Below, in pieces: positions 3,868-57,190 of a stretch of DNA of 59,174 bases. The notes below the pieces were generated by a model. That model worked only from the letters and a program-made list of their open reading frames with translations. It did not search any database and was not told where the DNA came from. The DNA lies in IMG/VR virus record IMGVR_UViG_3300029787_000038, positions 1 through 59,174 of that record; one strand, given 5' to 3'. Position 1 is the stretch's first letter. Each line of letters begins with the position of its first letter. The DNA is from a virus. Both the position numbers and the translations under genes were made by a program.

Positions 3868-4743
3868 TTAAAACGGAGAGTTCTCCATATTAAAGTTATA
3901 GGCTAAGTTGATTAACGGATCTTCAACCTGCTTTTGAATGGGCATCGGAAATACAGGATTGTATTCCATCGCAGGATTGTACGCAGGACTAGCAGGATCA
4001 CTTGGATCTAAACCTCCACTTTCATCCATAGCAGGTTTATAAACATTGTAATTTATAGCAGGGTTGTATTTCATCATATCTACAGTAGGATCTATCGTAG
4101 CACTCACTGGACCAATATCAGCTATTTTAGTACCAAATAGTTTATCTCCAAAATATTTATCCTTTGCAATGTCATCTTCAAACGAAAGTTGTTGAGGTTG
4201 ACCCATCGAAGCTTTTTGATTAGCAACAATATCTGTCATTTTAGTACCAAATAGTTTATCTCCAATACTTTCACCACCCTGCATAGGTTGAGGTATTGCA
4301 GGAGGATCACCCATAATTTGAGGTGTTGTTATTTGACTAAGATCACCCATCATAGGAGGTTGCATAGGTGTTGCAGGGATTTCAGCAGGCGTTGTAAAAG
4401 GAGCTGCGGGTATGGCCGTACCACCCAAGGACGCTATGCCTTGACCTAGCTGACCCGTAGTAGACATACCGCCACCAGACATACCGCCACCCATATTAGG
4501 AAACGCTTCGTTGACCAAGGACCGTATACCACTCATCACACCAGATACTTTTTGTATGGCCTCCTGTTGCATAGGTTGCATGGCCTGATCTACTTGGCTC
4601 ATGGCCCGCTGACCGAGGAACTGTTCAATCAGAGGAAACGGATCGTTTTGGATCTGTTGCATAGTGTTTTGAAACCCCTGTTGCATTTGTTGCAACGGAG
4701 TCATCATTTGTTGAAACGAAGGTGCTATAGGTTTTGCGGTCAT
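3868..4743 (-). CDS. Met/Gln/Pro/Gly-rich protein of unknown function, 291 aa
   Basis: The start is taken at MTAKPIAPSFQQMM (4743). The open frame goes 82 codons further up, but that part is hydrophobic noise over a regulatory region. The N-terminal third is Met/Gln-rich and helical, then comes VSGVMSGIRSLVNEAFP and a Gly-rich turn. The C-terminal half is low complexity with an internal repeat (DKLFGTKMTDI and DKLFGTKIADI) and YNPA-type motifs. It is paralogous in the MSGI segment to the 163-aa protein at 1159. It is transcribed against the main direction from the divergent control region 4744-5069. A virion or packaging-linked role is only a guess. Confidence 0.65.
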   Translation of the reverse strand: MTAKPIAPSFQQMMTPLQQMQQGFQNTMQQIQNDPFPLIEQFLGQRAMSQVDQAMQPMQQEAIQKVSGVMSGIRSLVNEAFPNMGGGMSGGGMSTTGQLGQGIASLGGTAIPAAPFTTPAEIPATPMQPPMMGDLSQITTPQIMGDPPAIPQPMQGGESIGDKLFGTKMTDIVANQKASMGQPQQLSFEDDIAKDKYFGDKLFGTKIADIGPVSATIDPTVDMMKYNPAINYNVYKPAMDESGGLDPSDPASPAYNPAMEYNPVFPMPIQKQVEDPLINLAYNFNMENSPF

Positions 4744-4796: not shown

Positions 4797-4958
4797 GGTT
4801 ACGGTTACTTATATAGCTGAGAAAATAAAAAAAAATATTTTTAGTGAAAAATAGGTGTAACCAGTGTAACCGTGTAACCTTTGGTACAAAACCCCTTATA
4901 TATAAGGACAAAACTAGGTTACATAAAAGGTTACACCTTGAAATACAAAAATGTAACC
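4797..4958. promoter_or_regulatory. array of eight GTAACC/GGTTAC boxes around a 14-bp palindrome
   Basis: This fills most of the 326-base gap between divergent genes. GGTTAC occurs at 4797, 4803, 4917 and 4929, and GTAACC at 4857, 4866, 4874 and 4953. Three boxes are spaced 9 and 8 bp apart. The exact palindrome CCTTATATATAAGG sits at 4894-4907, between the direct and inverted groups. It could be a repressor operator for the terS operon and the minus-strand gene, or an iteron-type origin. The remainder of the gap is A/T homopolymer runs. Confidence 0.6.
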
Positions 4959-5069
4959 CTCGATTTGGCTTAATGTGAATATTTTTCATTTTTTTTTAAA
5001 AAATATTTTTCTGGAATATATAAAGAAAGTATCGTACATATAAGAAAAGACTTATAGTTGGAGCAGAGT

Positions 5070-5753
5070 ATGGCAAACTTAAATAAGAGTTCAAAGCTTG
5101 ATTTTAAAAAAATACCAAGATCACTAACTTTGAATAATAATCCCAAACCATCTTGGGTAAAAGAGAAACCACCACGCAATCCAAATGAAAAGAGAGGTCG
5201 TGTTAGAGTTCATAAAGATCAGAAGCTAACAAGACGACAAGAGCTTTTTGTTAAGGAGCTAGTATCTAACGACGGCCAGATAACTTTATTGGAAGCTGCT
5301 ATGAAAGCAGGGTATTCCAAATCTTCTGCACATATTAGAGCTTATGAACTTACTAATCCTCATTTGAGCCCTCATGTAGTAGCCGCCATAAAAAGAGAAA
5401 GAGATCTTTTGGATGAAAAGTTTGGAGTAACTTACGCTAGACACATTCGGGACTTACAAAGAATAAGAGATATGGCTTTGGAGAACGGAGCCTACTCAGC
5501 CGCCGTTCAAGCAGAATTTCGTAGAGGTATGGCACAAGGGGACATCTATGTGAACAAGTCTGAGATAAGGCACGGATCAATAGATAGTATGAGTAAAGAA
5601 GAAGTTGTAAAAGCAATCGAAGAAATAAAAAGGTCTTATGGTGAACAAACCATTGATATTACCCCAGACGAGCAAGAAGGAAGCAGGACTATATCAGCAA
5701 CTGAAATCAGCCATCAAGAGGTCGAAGAGGAACTTAGTCCTAACAAGGATTGA
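5070..5753 (+). CDS. terS: terminase small subunit
   Basis: Recognises phage DNA and recruits the large terminase for packaging. Residues about 50-110 match the Terminase_2 pattern: LTRRQELFVKELVSNDGQITLLEAAMKAGYSKSSAH, then NPHLSPHVVAAI, an N-terminal helix-turn-helix. The middle is helical (oligomerisation) and the C-terminus is acidic (terL-binding tail). It is 227 aa from the ATG at 5070, chosen over the TTG at 5058 because GGAG lies 6 nt upstream. TerL is 4.5 kb away, separated by early-type genes, which is unusual. The downstream nuclease overlaps it by 116 nt. Confidence 0.85.
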   Translation: MANLNKSSKLDFKKIPRSLTLNNNPKPSWVKEKPPRNPNEKRGRVRVHKDQKLTRRQELFVKELVSNDGQITLLEAAMKAGYSKSSAHIRAYELTNPHLSPHVVAAIKRERDLLDEKFGVTYARHIRDLQRIRDMALENGAYSAAVQAEFRRGMAQGDIYVNKSEIRHGSIDSMSKEEVVKAIEEIKRSYGEQTIDITPDEQEGSRTISATEISHQEVEEELSPNKD

Positions 5754-50190: not shown

Positions 50191-50948
50191 CAACTGCCGT
50201 AGATGAAAAAAAGAAAACCGAGGTAGTTGCATTTGACGCCTCAATAATGGAAGCAGACGCAGGGTCTGGTATTATTGATTTAGAAAGTGATGATCTAGCT
50301 CTGCCTTTTCTAAAAATATTATCTGGGCTCGACAGTAAGCTTGACGACTTGGATAATGCTAAAAGAGGGGACATCATTAATAGTGTCACAGATCAAATAT
50401 ACAAAGGTAAGGATGGGGTCGATGTCGTACCTTGTGCTTATGAAAGAGTATATATCCAATGGTCGCCTCGTGGTGAGGGAACAGGGGCACCTGTCTCTGT
50501 TTATAAAACCAAGGATGAATGCCCTAAGTTTGAAAGAAGTTCAGAAGATAACAAAGATTATCTAACAGACGGATCAGGACAATACATCGAAGAGACGCAT
50601 CAGCATTATGTGTTGGTGTTAAATAAAGATGGTGGTGCAGACCAAGCTTTAATTGCTATGAAATCTACACAGTTAAAGAAAAGCCGTAAATGGAATAGCA
50701 TGATGTTATCTGCAACCATCAAGGGGAAGAACGGATTGTTTACACCGCCTCGTTTTGGGTTTGTGTATCACATGAAGTCTGTTGCAGAAGAGAACTCAAA
50801 AGGCTCTTGGCACGGATGGGAGATGTCAAGGAAAGATCCCGTCAACAGTGCCGACATATATGCTAAGGCAAAGTCTTTTGCCGAAAGCATTAAAAAGGGA
50901 AGCGTTGTTGTTAAACACGAGAAAGATGAGAGCGAAACTCCCTTCTAA
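50187..50948 (+). CDS. putative single-stranded DNA-binding-like protein, 253 aa
   Basis: Acidic N-terminus and C-terminus (ends HEKDESETPF, an acidic tail as in SSB and T7 gp2.5), with a strand-rich core (IYKGKDGVDVVPCAYERVYI; HQHYVLVLNKDGGADQALIA) compatible with an OB-like fold. Placed directly before the primase. The SSB role is inferred from tail, size and location, not from a motif. TAATG overlap to the next gene. Confidence 0.6.
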   Translation: MTTAVDEKKKTEVVAFDASIMEADAGSGIIDLESDDLALPFLKILSGLDSKLDDLDNAKRGDIINSVTDQIYKGKDGVDVVPCAYERVYIQWSPRGEGTGAPVSVYKTKDECPKFERSSEDNKDYLTDGSGQYIEETHQHYVLVLNKDGGADQALIAMKSTQLKKSRKWNSMMLSATIKGKNGLFTPPRFGFVYHMKSVAEENSKGSWHGWEMSRKDPVNSADIYAKAKSFAESIKKGSVVVKHEKDESETPF

Positions 50949-52486
50949 TGTCAGTAGAGCAATTTTCATCAATCTTTGACGGATTGAAGGAAGCCTACGG
51001 TACTTACAAAGTTGAAAAGACACAACTAAACGGTAAGAACACTGGCAAGGCTTCCATCATCCGCGAACCACGGACCCTGAACCTTTGGGAGGGACACCTG
51101 TCTGGTAAGGGTGATGCGTTAGGCATCATCCCTATCAATGAGAGCAATAGGTGTAAATGGGGATGTATTGATGTTGATCAATATCCACTTGACCATAAAA
51201 ATCTTGTCGATAAGATTAGAAAACTCAAACTCCCTTTAGTAGTGTGTCGCTCCAAGTCAGGAGGGGCACACTGTTTTTTGTTTCTAACCGATTGGGTAGA
51301 TGCAAAAGATTTACAAAGAACCTTACAACATATTAGTGCTGCCCTTGGGTATGGAGACAGTGAGATCTTTCCCAAGCAGGTTAAGTTGAATTTAGAGCGT
51401 GGTGACGTGGGTAACTTCTTGAACTTACCTTATTACGACCACGAGGAGGGGCTACGGTACGCCTTTCTTGATGAGGGCACCTCAGCTACCCTAAAAGAGT
51501 TTATCGCTCTGTACGAGCGTTTTAAGCAGACCCCAGAGCAAATGAAAAAGCTACAGATAGAAGAACAACCAGAGTTTGCTTCTATGAGGGATGGTCCGCC
51601 CTGTTTACAGATTATTATGGCGGGTAAAATATCCGAAGGTGGACGCAACAATGGTTTGTTTAACATTGGTGTTTACCTACGCAAAGCTTTTCCTGATTCG
51701 TGGGAGAGTGAAATACTGAATTATAATATGCAGTATTTAGAACCACCATTGCCTTTGAATGAAGTCAATGTAGTGGCAAGACAGTTACACCGTAAAGATT
51801 ATGCTTATAAGTGTTCAGATGCCCCTATCAACGCCCACTGCAACAAAGAACTGTGTCGTACACGACGTTATGGTATCGGGGCTGCGGTACAAGGGGCAAA
51901 CATTGCTAACCTTAGAAAATATAATTCTACCCCGCCTGTGTGGTTTATTGACGTAAACGGAGAACCGCTTGAACTAGATACTGATGCTTTGATGAGCCAA
52001 GGGTTGTTTCAAAAAGCTTGTATGGAACAACTACACATGATGCCCAGAACCGTATCCAGAAACATTTGGGAAAGCAGGATTAGTTCTTTGATGACCGAGA
52101 TGAAAGAAAACGAAAGTGCCATTATGGAAGTGTCCCAAGATGCGAGCATTAGCGGACAGTTTTATGATTACCTAGAGGAGTTCTGTCGTCATTTGCAACA
52201 GGCACAGGACAGGGAAGAGATCCTGTTACGCAAGCCTTGGACAGATGAAGAAGAGGGCTTTACCTATTTCAGGCTGAAGGACTTTGAGAACCACCTCAAA
52301 AAGAATAGGTTTTTTGAGTATAAGTCTCATAAGGTGGCCCAAAGACTTAGGGACATACAAGGTGAAAGCACCGTCCTCAAGATCAAAGGGTCTACACTCA
52401 GGGTATGGAAGATACCTGCCTTTGAGTTTTCTGCAGTAGAAGTCGATACACCTGAGTTTGGTGATAAAAGAAAGACCCCTTGGTAA
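50948..52486 (+). CDS. AEP-type (TOTE-like) DNA primase, 512 aa
   Basis: Archaeo-eukaryotic primase core with catalytic Asp pair (KWGCIDVDQYPLDHKNLV, about residues 58-76) and the His motif RSKSGGAHCFLF. A C-terminal Cys cluster (CSDAPINAHCNKELC) is probably a zinc site, and a further helical domain follows. It makes primers for the phage polymerase. No DnaG-like fold and no fused helicase are seen. Start coupled to the gene before by TAATG. Confidence 0.85.
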   Translation: MSVEQFSSIFDGLKEAYGTYKVEKTQLNGKNTGKASIIREPRTLNLWEGHLSGKGDALGIIPINESNRCKWGCIDVDQYPLDHKNLVDKIRKLKLPLVVCRSKSGGAHCFLFLTDWVDAKDLQRTLQHISAALGYGDSEIFPKQVKLNLERGDVGNFLNLPYYDHEEGLRYAFLDEGTSATLKEFIALYERFKQTPEQMKKLQIEEQPEFASMRDGPPCLQIIMAGKISEGGRNNGLFNIGVYLRKAFPDSWESEILNYNMQYLEPPLPLNEVNVVARQLHRKDYAYKCSDAPINAHCNKELCRTRRYGIGAAVQGANIANLRKYNSTPPVWFIDVNGEPLELDTDALMSQGLFQKACMEQLHMMPRTVSRNIWESRISSLMTEMKENESAIMEVSQDASISGQFYDYLEEFCRHLQQAQDREEILLRKPWTDEEEGFTYFRLKDFENHLKKNRFFEYKSHKVAQRLRDIQGESTVLKIKGSTLRVWKIPAFEFSAVEVDTPEFGDKRKTPW

Positions 52487-54248: not shown

Positions 54249-55018
54249 TGGCTTGCAATAAACACTCTATGTCTCAGGTGTATAAAATTTTATCCGATTA
54301 TAAAGGTTCAGAGCATAAGTTTGAAAAAGGTGAAAAAAAGAAAAAATTTAATTTAAGCTTTATTTGTTGTGTAGATACAAAGTATGGGAATATTAATTCT
54401 TCCACAGATGAATGGTTTATTGGCGAAGATGGTTTCTTTTTTAAGGACACTTATGAGAATCTTTATAAAACAAACAGCAAAAGTTTTAACCTTTTTTCGA
54501 ATGAGCATGACATCATTGAGGGCATGAACTTTTCATTTACAGCTAATGTTTCAGATAACAAAGAATTAGTTTACCTTAAACAATGTAAGTATACACAATT
54601 AAACTATGTAAAAGACGTCGATATCCTTTCTTATCCAGAAAAGACTTATCAAACAGATGAAGAAAAAGAAGAGGACTTGAGACAATCTAAACGTATAGAG
54701 CGTGGTCCTGATGGGGATCTAGTCAAAGAACATTTTCAGGATGAATGTCAAATATGTAATGCACAAGGTATTTTTGAAAACTATTCCTTCATAAAAGAAA
54801 ATGGTCGTCAATACTCAGAGGCTCATCATGTTATCCCACTTTCTCAAAAGGGTACCGATACGCCCGACAACATTATGTGTCTTTGTGCTAATCACCACAG
54901 GCAAATGCACTACGGTGACGCATTTGTTAGGTATGATTGCAAAAATTTTTATGTGACCCTTGATGGTAAAGAACTTAAACCAATACCAAAATGGAGGATG
55001 AAATGTCCTTACAACTAA
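54248..55018 (+). CDS. HNH endonuclease, 256 aa
   Basis: The C-terminal domain shows CQICNAQGIF, then EAHHVIPLSQKGTDTPDNIM and CLCANHHRQMHYG, a complete HNH site with structural Cys residues. The N-terminal 150 residues are AT-rich and less conserved. It is set between DUF6378 and polA, and GC content appears lower than its neighbours, like freestanding homing endonucleases that target polymerase genes. Start overlaps the previous stop (TAATG). Confidence 0.85.
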   Translation: MACNKHSMSQVYKILSDYKGSEHKFEKGEKKKKFNLSFICCVDTKYGNINSSTDEWFIGEDGFFFKDTYENLYKTNSKSFNLFSNEHDIIEGMNFSFTANVSDNKELVYLKQCKYTQLNYVKDVDILSYPEKTYQTDEEKEEDLRQSKRIERGPDGDLVKEHFQDECQICNAQGIFENYSFIKENGRQYSEAHHVIPLSQKGTDTPDNIMCLCANHHRQMHYGDAFVRYDCKNFYVTLDGKELKPIPKWRMKCPYN

Positions 55019-56895
55019 CAATGTTTGCACCCAAGAGCGAATGGGTGCCCCCTTATGAACTACCTGATCTCAGTCACTGTAAGCAAATTGCCATTGACGT
55101 AGAAACCAGAGATCCGAACATCAAATCTAAAGGACCGGGTTGGCCTACAGGAGACGGTATGATTGTAGGATATGCCATTGCCACCGAATCATGGTCACAT
55201 TATATCCCTGTTAAACACGTCGGCGGGGGTAATTTAGATGAAAGAATCGTCAATAGGTGGTTAAAAAAGGTTTTTGAGAGCCCTGCAGATAAAATTATGC
55301 ACAATGCACAGTATGATGCAGGGTGGATTAGACAAGAGGGCTTTACTTTAAACGGTAGAATCATTGATACAATGGTCATTGCCTCGTTATTGGACGAAAA
55401 CCGCTTTAGTTATAGCCTAAATGCTCTTTCTTACGACTATTTAAGCAAAACCAAGTCCGAAAAAGAATTAAATGAAGCTGCATCTGCCTTTGGTGTCGAT
55501 CCAAAAGCTGAAATGTGGAAGTTACCTGCCATGTTTGTAGGTCCTTACGCTACCGACGACGCAAAACTGACCTTGGACCTTTGGAATTACTTTTCTGTCG
55601 AGATTAACAAGCAAGGATTGTCAAAAATAGCTGATTTAGAGTTAAATTTACTGCCCTGTTTGATTGATATGACATGGAGAGGTGTTAGAGTGGACCTTGA
55701 TAAGGCCGAATCACTTAGAAACACCCTCCTCAAGCGTGAAAATGAAACTTTACACAAGATAAAAAAGCTTACGGGGCTTGAAATAGAGGTTTGGGCGGCT
55801 CAATCTATAGCCAAAGCCTTTGACAAACTTAATATTAAGTACGAAAGAACTGAAAAAGGTGTGCCCTCCTTTACCAAGTCTTTCCTGAAAGATCATCCAC
55901 ACGAGCTTTCTAAATTAATTGTGGACGTTAGGAACCTTAACAAGACCAGTGGTACGTTTATCAACACAATTATGAAGCATTGCCACAAAGACGGACGCAT
56001 TCATAGTCATATTAACCAGATACGCTCCGACCAAGGGGGCACGGTATCGGGTAGAATATCCATGAACAATCCTAATTTACAGCAGATCCCCGCTAGAGAT
56101 CCTGAATTAGGTCCTATGATTCGTTCTTTGTTCCTACCTGAAGAGGGAGAGCAGTGGGGTTCTATTGATTTCTCGCAACAGGAGCCACGGATCTTGGTTC
56201 ACTACGCTCATGTCTTTGGTGTATCCAGAAAAGTACCGCTTAAAGGCGCAAAAGAGTTTGTCGAAGCTTATAATGACGACCCGACTACCGATTTTCATAC
56301 GATGGTTGCAGAAATGGCACAGATACCGCGTAAGTCCGCCAAGACCATCAACCTCGGCATGATGTACGGCATGGGTGTCAACAAGTTATCCGAGCAATTA
56401 GGCATAGAAGTAGAGGAAGCCAAGTCCATTATTCGTCAGTACCACGAGCGAGTACCCTTTGTGAAGGGCTTGATGAACGGGGTAATGAACCATTTAAATG
56501 AACGAGATAGCTCAGGCTCCGTAAGATCACTACTCGGCCGAAAATGCCGCTTTGATTTATGGGAACCTGACCGCTTTGAAATGAACAAGGCTATGCCTTT
56601 TGAGCAAGCTGTACAGGAATATGGTAAAACCACCAAGCTCAAGCGGGCTTATACCTACAAAGCCCTAAACAGGCTTATTCAAGCGTCGGCCGCGGACATG
56701 ACAAAGAAAGCTATGGTCGATATTTACCAATCAGGTCGCGTCCCTCTTATACAAATACACGACGAGATAGCGATTTCTGTCAGAGATAAACCAGATGCAG
56801 AAAGTATTTCCCGAATCATGGAAAATGCAGTACCTTTAGAGGTGCCTAACAAATGTGACGTGGAGGTGGGTCGCAGTTGGGGAACCGCTCAATGA
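55003..56895 (+). CDS. polA: DNA polymerase A, complete (right allele), 630 aa
   Basis: Replicative polymerase with proofreading. The 3'-5' exonuclease motifs are IAIDVETRDP (Exo I), MHNAQYDAGW (Exo II) and YATDDAKLTLDLW (Exo III). The polymerase has motif A (IDFSQQEPRILVHYA), B (KSAKTINLGMMYGMG) and C (IQIHDEIAISV). It lacks a 5' nuclease domain, so is T7-like in layout. The start at 55003 is preferred to 54991 because GGAGG lies 5 nt upstream; it overlaps the HNH gene by 16 nt. No DnaJ-like insertion, as known from HMO-2011, is visible. Confidence 0.97.
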   Translation: MSLQLTMFAPKSEWVPPYELPDLSHCKQIAIDVETRDPNIKSKGPGWPTGDGMIVGYAIATESWSHYIPVKHVGGGNLDERIVNRWLKKVFESPADKIMHNAQYDAGWIRQEGFTLNGRIIDTMVIASLLDENRFSYSLNALSYDYLSKTKSEKELNEAASAFGVDPKAEMWKLPAMFVGPYATDDAKLTLDLWNYFSVEINKQGLSKIADLELNLLPCLIDMTWRGVRVDLDKAESLRNTLLKRENETLHKIKKLTGLEIEVWAAQSIAKAFDKLNIKYERTEKGVPSFTKSFLKDHPHELSKLIVDVRNLNKTSGTFINTIMKHCHKDGRIHSHINQIRSDQGGTVSGRISMNNPNLQQIPARDPELGPMIRSLFLPEEGEQWGSIDFSQQEPRILVHYAHVFGVSRKVPLKGAKEFVEAYNDDPTTDFHTMVAEMAQIPRKSAKTINLGMMYGMGVNKLSEQLGIEVEEAKSIIRQYHERVPFVKGLMNGVMNHLNERDSSGSVRSLLGRKCRFDLWEPDRFEMNKAMPFEQAVQEYGKTTKLKRAYTYKALNRLIQASAADMTKKAMVDIYQSGRVPLIQIHDEIAISVRDKPDAESISRIMENAVPLEVPNKCDVEVGRSWGTAQ

Positions 56896-57007: not shown

Positions 57008-57190
57008 ATGGATACAACTAAATGGAAAAGTGTGCTTGTTCCTATCGAAGTGTACAGAGAATTGAAGGCCCTGTCCCGCGAACAGGGGCGCACGATGGGG
57101 GGACAGTTAAAGATCATGTATCAAGTCTATGAAGCCTATCAAAATAAAGAATTAACCTTTTCTACGGAACCACCTGAAAAAAGAGTTTGA
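57008..57190 (+). CDS. ribbon-helix-helix-like regulator (right allele), 60 aa
   Basis: MDTTKWKSVLVPIEVYRELK, then ALSREQGRTMGGQLKIMYQV. The first 12 residues match the left-hand protein at 998 except for I/K at position 12. Short strand then two helices indicates an Arc-type DNA-binding dimer. AAAGGAG lies before the ATG. It may bind the dyads in the early promoters, including its own. Confidence 0.75.
   Translation: MDTTKWKSVLVPIEVYRELKALSREQGRTMGGQLKIMYQVYEAYQNKELTFSTEPPEKRV

Follow-up and report, generated by a model that had tools for sequence, protein, structure and literature searches.

A conserved box array upstream of terS, its co-variation with a primase wing, and a candidate iteron origin in marine phages

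The box array and its conservation

The window, that is, the whole stretch of viral DNA that was analysed (59,174 nucleotides), contains in the gap upstream of the small terminase gene a compact array of six-base boxes, found as GGTTAC at 4797, 4803, 4917 and 4929 and as GTAACC at 4857, 4866, 4874 and 4953. The following features make up the locus:

3868–4743, minus strand: left-neighbour ORF, which makes the gap divergent in the window
4797–4808, minus strand: left box pair, GGTTAC GGTTAC, exact copies at 4797 and 4803 (spacing 6)
4809–4853, unstranded: A+T-rich tract (87% A+T), candidate duplex-unwinding element
4857–4879, plus strand: three boxes in tandem, GTAACC-agt-GTAACC-gt-GTAACC, at spacings of 9 and 8; best-conserved segment of the array
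4894–4907, unstranded: CCTTATATATAAGG, a 14-bp palindrome flanked by the triple and the inverted pair
4917–4934, minus strand: inverted box pair (spacing 12, kept in many relatives)
4953–4958, plus strand: last box, exact GTAACC
5011–5023, plus strand: conserved CTGG-(n)-TATATAA element just 5' of terS, possible terS promoter
5070–5753, plus strand: terS, small terminase (Terminase_2 / phrog_51), the usual neighbour of the array

The sequence-only reading of this DNA had described eight copies of a 6-mer within 162 bp in both orientations, a helical-turn-like spacing of 9 and 8, and an exact 14-bp palindrome in mid-array. All of this was borne out: the eight copies are exact, the spacing is that measured within the triple, and the palindrome lies where it was described. 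The divergent gap before terS, in turn, is a property of the window and not a general one, since in some relatives the left-hand gene runs on the plus strand. A T precedes six of the eight boxes, so that the actual box is TGTAACC. The A+T-rich tract adjoins the iterons and keeps its A+T-rich character in relatives (TATATAGG..GAAAAATAAAAAAAATA), and the palindrome region has its counterpart in a comparable A+T-rich centre, present in relatives and in an array that has moved away from terS in genome G011 (CCTATATTATAAGG).

The clustering exceeds chance expectation. GTAACC and GGTTAC occur 30 times in the window against 24 expected; the 22 copies outside the array are scattered and near expectation, and thus represent background, so that the count proposed as a check gave a low background in 59 kb. 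The array is the sole cluster of its box within the window. In 40 random genomes generated by an order-2 Markov model, the largest cluster of any 6-mer with a G+C of at least 3 within a 162-bp span held 3–6 copies, mostly 4, as against eight in the array. The other proposed check, a change in cumulative GC skew, was uninformative, the skew being positive nearly throughout the window with no switch at the array. A sigma-70 promoter scan returned promoters no commoner than in shuffled sequences, and the search of Rfam gave no family for the array, its sole match lying far under threshold. The window has no terminal repeat.

Relatives were gathered by a TerS search of IMG/VR, which yielded 80 loci; the sampled collections are mostly contigs of unknown host. 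A comparable array is found 50–280 bp upstream of terS in most of these loci, with TerS identity down to about 35%, and the expected conservation in relatives is thereby confirmed. The shared layout comprises the left pair near TATATAGG, an A-rich tract, three tandem boxes spaced 8–9 bp and an A+T-rich centre, followed by an inverted pair spaced 12 bp, another box, a G-rich or TTAATG element, CTGG..TATATAA and terS. This layout is kept across highly diverged relatives while all box letters change in concert, the letters varying between phages and being uniform inside most arrays. There are lineage-specific departures: the left pair, present in many relatives, is lost in the L032/L055/L066 clade, and in the clade of L032, L055, L059 and L080 the boxes are on the plus strand only, with no inverted partners. 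In G011 and G012 the array is about 5 kb away from terS, in contrast to its position at terS in the window and most relatives.

The large terminase of the window shares 53–63% identity with its counterparts in the Pelagibacter phages HTVC023P and HTVC027P and in phages 023Pt_psg01 and DSL-LC04, which places the window phage in or near the HTVC023P-type (pelagiphage-like) podoviruses, an abundant marine group. The distant isolates 023Pt_psg01, HTVC027P, DSL-LC04 and HTVC023P were searched for an array of this geometry, with a negative result. HTVC023P has repeated CTAGGAAA boxes upstream of terS (L085, 3392–3500), with letters and spacing unlike those of the window array, and its primase C-terminus differs too.

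Several other elements were observed around these loci. A perfect parS-like TGTTTCACGTGAAACA lies upstream of terS in L070, L076 and L081, genomes with a relocated candidate origin array, and GTTTCACGTGAAAC is found inside a gene of HTVC027P (L083, 4854–4867). Short G+C-rich motifs of the CGCGGATCACGGTCCGCGG type are frequent in the intergenic DNA left of the array (L004, L017, L032, L076 and others). Downstream of terS, the close relatives L040, L046 and L051 have exchanged one version of a DUF932-like gene for another; a CPADC..CGNGKPLCAR protein of unknown function follows.

Primase wing residues and box letters

Pattern scans for three tandem boxes, from which many coding-repeat matches were set aside by hand, located the same triple geometry, built of 5-mers, in many unrelated phages, directly downstream of a long replication gene. 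Fifteen flanking proteins were assigned by Pfam and PHROG profiles to DUF5906, VapE, DUF927 with a Cch helix-turn-helix, Pox_D5, or primase/helicase families. The gene order in several unrelated phages is primase-helicase, array, a gene of 152–172 aa and a terminase-sized gene, the last two being an HTH_7 protein and the large terminase in L206. The origins of SaPI and of SCCmec Cch2 are likewise downstream of the initiator gene and consist of short iterons read by its C-terminal domain, with which Cch2 reads three 5-nt iterons within a 23-bp repeat (PMC7581432). Because the helicase-adjacent arrays match these origins in position and composition, our reading of the window array moved from packaging to replication. 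The primases of the window group and the helicases of the unrelated phages both often have an acidic C-terminal tail ending in PF or PW (EAPF, ELPF, ESPF), which resembles an SSB-type tail.

Among the replication genes of the window are PolA, a primase of the AEP type (PF22548) and two helicases, one UvrD and one SNF2; Pfam scans found no D5/SF3 helicase. There are two PolA-like ORFs, at 42–881 and 54991–56895, one full-length and the second equivalent to the C-terminal portion of the first, with 73% identity across 277 aa. A profile was built from the last 150 residues of the 15 array-flanking proteins and compared with all ORFs of at least 50 aa in the window and seven relatives. In each of these eight genomes the top ORF, out of 221–552, was the primase C-terminus. 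The scores themselves are weak (HMM E 0.026 for the window, 7.7–12.5 bits overall), as is the hhalign comparison of the primase domain with the helicase C-termini (P 0.006–0.026, probability 2–6%), and the evidence is the consistency across the eight genomes. The two sides have a wing of common form, V-I-K-V-H-G-K-T-S-R versus V-L-K-I-K-G-S-T-L-R. The candidate reader and its wing are encoded as follows:

50948–52486, plus strand: archaeo-eukaryotic primase (AEP-TOTE PF22548, PriCT_1, phrog_21866) with a C-terminal winged-helix domain and an acidic ..PW tail, proposed box reader
52373–52411, plus strand: codons for wing residues 476–488 (VLKIKGSTLRVWK), of which V476 and K478 co-vary with the box

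The statement that no known protein matched the array is thus partly answered, the likely reader being this primase. Its gene is 8–12 kb from the array in the window group, which separates the reader from the candidate origin, whereas the helicase genes of the unrelated phages adjoin their arrays. Two further genes considered as readers, the left neighbour and the DUF932 gene, were rejected since neither follows the box class in close pairs.

Co-variation was analysed in contigs carrying both the primase and the array. Among 28 distinct primases, 21 beside GTAAC and seven beside GTTAC boxes, two of about 513 alignment columns separate the classes perfectly, and both (columns 480 and 493, window residues 476 and 483) are located at the wing. 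Residue 476, V for GTAAC and L for GTTAC, was correct in 13 of 13 contigs fetched later, which are not all phylogenetically independent. Residue 483 (A/S/T versus P/V) separated the first set without error but mispredicted the held-out L646 and L655, and was dropped as a determinant. At residue 478, phages with GTWACC boxes have K and those with GTWACA boxes have R. Over 39 primases the pair formed by residues 476 and 478 corresponds one-to-one with nine box sequences, four of the pairs being represented by one contig each, their boxes having been identified with the residues already known:

VK: GTAACC
LK: GTTACC
VR: GTAACA
TR: GTTACA
TK: GTGTCC (one contig)
QK: GGTACC (one contig)
QR: GGTACA
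QS: GGGATA (one contig)
VA: GTAATC (one contig)

In a ranking of the 301 variable primase columns by how well they track the box, residue 476 leads and 478 follows when the whole box is considered; base 3 taken singly is tracked best by 476, and base 6 by 478. A primase tree of the 39 sequences, calculated from residues 1–440 with the C-terminal domain left out, needs 11 box changes. Close pairs show the same behaviour: from the window to L105, residue 478 changes from K to R and box base 6 from C to A, and L648 and L436, which differ at 19 of 512 primase residues including 476 and 478, differ in their boxes. Contigs that seemed to lack an array carry one in other letters (GTAATC with A478 in L436, GTGTCC with T476 in L480, GGTACC with Q476 in L567). 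G011 also seemed array-less; from Q476 and R478 the box GGTACA was predicted, and a search then located GGTACA boxes arranged in the usual layout. G012 has Q476 and S478 with a GGGATA array, away from terS. Several choices (region limits, spacing, use of the wing) were made post hoc, and only two results, the residue-476 rule and the G011 box, were tested against data that had played no part in deriving them. That residues 476 and 478 co-vary with the box suggests that box specificity lies in the C-terminal domain of the primase.

An AlphaFold2 model calculated with 66 sequences (model m8ab493a537a3) predicts, with moderate confidence, a winged helix for this domain (mean pLDDT of 70, with values of 78–86 around the wing); both residue 476 and residue 478 fall on the first strand of the wing. 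A sequence search of the PDB with the domain profile gave nothing credible, and the Foldseek search of the PDB gave no match reaching E 0.001. The best Foldseek match, and the nearest solved fold, is the winged helix of TcpK on oriT DNA of pCW3 (5vfx; E 0.015, probability 1.00, TM 0.5–0.6, 13% identity). TcpK inserts its beta-wing into the major groove to read tandem 9-nt boxes in oriT (PMC6137059), which fits a primase whose wing residues would set the box letters. The likeness is at the level of the fold only, TcpK being, unlike the primase domain, a stand-alone conjugation protein.

Other possible readers and uses of the array

The array is real and conserved, and its letters change together with the wing residues of the primase, whereas TerS does not track them. 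The TerS proteins of L035, L040 and L044 (GTAACC), L046, L049 and L050 (GTTACC) and L051 (GTTACA) differ at just 4–5 C-terminal positions, and L052 (GTAACC) is identical at the variable residues to L046 (GTTACC); TerS of L016 and L119, with GTTAC boxes, is nearly identical over the compared part to that of L031, with GTAAC boxes. The best column of the TerS alignment separates the GTAAC and GTTAC classes at 0.893 and none is perfect, unlike the primase columns. TerS was accordingly rejected as the source of the letter changes. These comparisons render it improbable that the array is a pac or cosB packaging-initiation site bound by the small terminase, which would also repress its own promoter as in SPP1, a reading that draws on the usual position of the array, about 100–270 bp upstream of terS in relatives, and on the Terminase_2/SPP1 type of the window TerS. 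The pac site of SPP1 spans the terS promoters and has direct repeats, so that it shares with the window the presence of repeat boxes in the terS promoter region beside a Terminase_2-type TerS (PMC4737164, PMC6316719). The boxes of SPP1 and SF6, moreover, differ though their TerS proteins are exchangeable (PMC4737164, PMC6316719). TerS can recognise pac mainly through DNA structure in these phages (PMC4737164), and the preference of SF6 TerS for structure over letters leaves room for weak TerS recognition. Unlike in SPP1, however, the box letters of the window group track the primase, and the array can leave terS, as it has done in G011 and G012; in unrelated phages it adjoins primase-helicase genes. 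(Near-)identical TerS beside different boxes, together with the distance of about 5 kb from terS in two genomes, argues that the array is neither a pac site nor an operator read by TerS. Of the two options in the sequence-only reading, a dedicated operator and an iteron origin, the first is weakened by the independence of the letters from TerS and the untying of the array from terS in two genomes, and the second is well supported by the conserved array, the co-variation with the primase and the helicase-adjacent arrays.

Co-variation names the reader of the boxes and not the outcome of binding, so the primase could bind the array for another purpose, such as control of the terS or late promoter, partition, or primase loading in late replication, with the true origin elsewhere. 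The frequent location of the array between a terminator-like hairpin and terS, including the TATATAA elements, would agree with such a use, and the array may have a second role in the terS promoter. We consider this unlikely as the full account, given that replication proteins of the SaPI, SCCmec Cch2 and pRN1 type use such sites as origins, that the layout was retained in G011 when the array moved from terS, and that the window has no other cluster of the box. It is very unlikely that the boxes are the sites of a separate transcription regulator, for which the small ribbon-helix-helix-like protein at 57008–57190 (60 aa, MDTTKWKSVLVPIEVY...) would be an example: such proteins bind arrays of short repeats and a homologue is present in 14 of 20 related records, but its N-terminal strand KWKSVLVPIEVY hardly varies among phages with GTAACC, GTTACC or GTAACA boxes and therefore cannot account for the concerted letter changes. 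As to a structured RNA or single-strand DNA element in which the boxes pair mutually and their letters change together for that reason, plus-strand boxes are indeed able to pair with minus-strand ones (GGTGTAACC and GGTTACACC), and several classes preserve this complementarity. Such pairing would not predict co-variation with primase residues, and a self-pairing RNA was rejected because the inverted boxes are missing in the L032/L055/L059/L080 clade and Rfam holds no family for the array; we regard this explanation as hardly credible.

A proposed iteron origin read by the primase

The array is probably an iteron replication origin read by the wing of the primase. Binding by the primase is proposed from the co-variation, and duplex opening, priming and use as an origin from the position of the array and the analogy with SaPI and Cch2. 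The primase would bind the 6-bp boxes via the beta-wing of its C-terminal winged-helix domain, with residue 476 setting box base 2/3 and residue 478 base 5/6. It would gather on the triple boxes, aided by the inverted ones, and this assembly, beside the A+T-rich tract, could open the duplex there and so position the primase for the synthesis of the first primer.

The closest known systems share parts of this arrangement. SaPI Rep and SCCmec Cch2 origins have iterons of 5–6 nt, three of them in tandem within about 23 bp, and the replication protein reads them with its C-terminal DNA-binding domain (PMC7581432), as proposed here for the primase. The proposed reader in the window is, in contrast, an AEP primase and not an initiator helicase (SF3/AAA+), its gene is 8–12 kb off instead of directly upstream of the array, and the array has inverted boxes and two pairs in addition. 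In P4 alpha and pRN1 ORF904 an AEP-type primase is also joined to an origin-recognising protein, but these primase-helicases contain an SF3 helicase domain that the window primase lacks. The iterons of P4, GGTGAACAG, appear to resemble the window GGTGTAACC. The pRN1 origin, a stem-loop as opposed to an iteron array, is located in non-coding DNA near the rep gene (PMC4234260). A prior description of such an origin and reader was not found in the open-access literature, and a literature search for the box letters returned primer matches only.

In a wider proposal, which we judge evenly balanced, a stand-alone AEP primase would be the origin-recognition protein of a dominant ocean phage group and carry a wing code, related wings in the SF3/D5 helicases of unrelated phages would read arrays of the same geometry, and the two would form one exchangeable module, a large unnoticed class of origins that could be paired with their readers by sequence alone.

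The analysis pairs a candidate origin with a candidate reader and tabulates residues against bases for nine natural variants, which makes the proposal testable by single-substitution binding assays. Six to eight boxes changing with two residues constitute a clear case of protein–DNA co-evolution. If the proposal is true, the primase does a job usually assigned to an initiator or a helicase, and origins would become predictable in many phages by matching wing residues with box letters.
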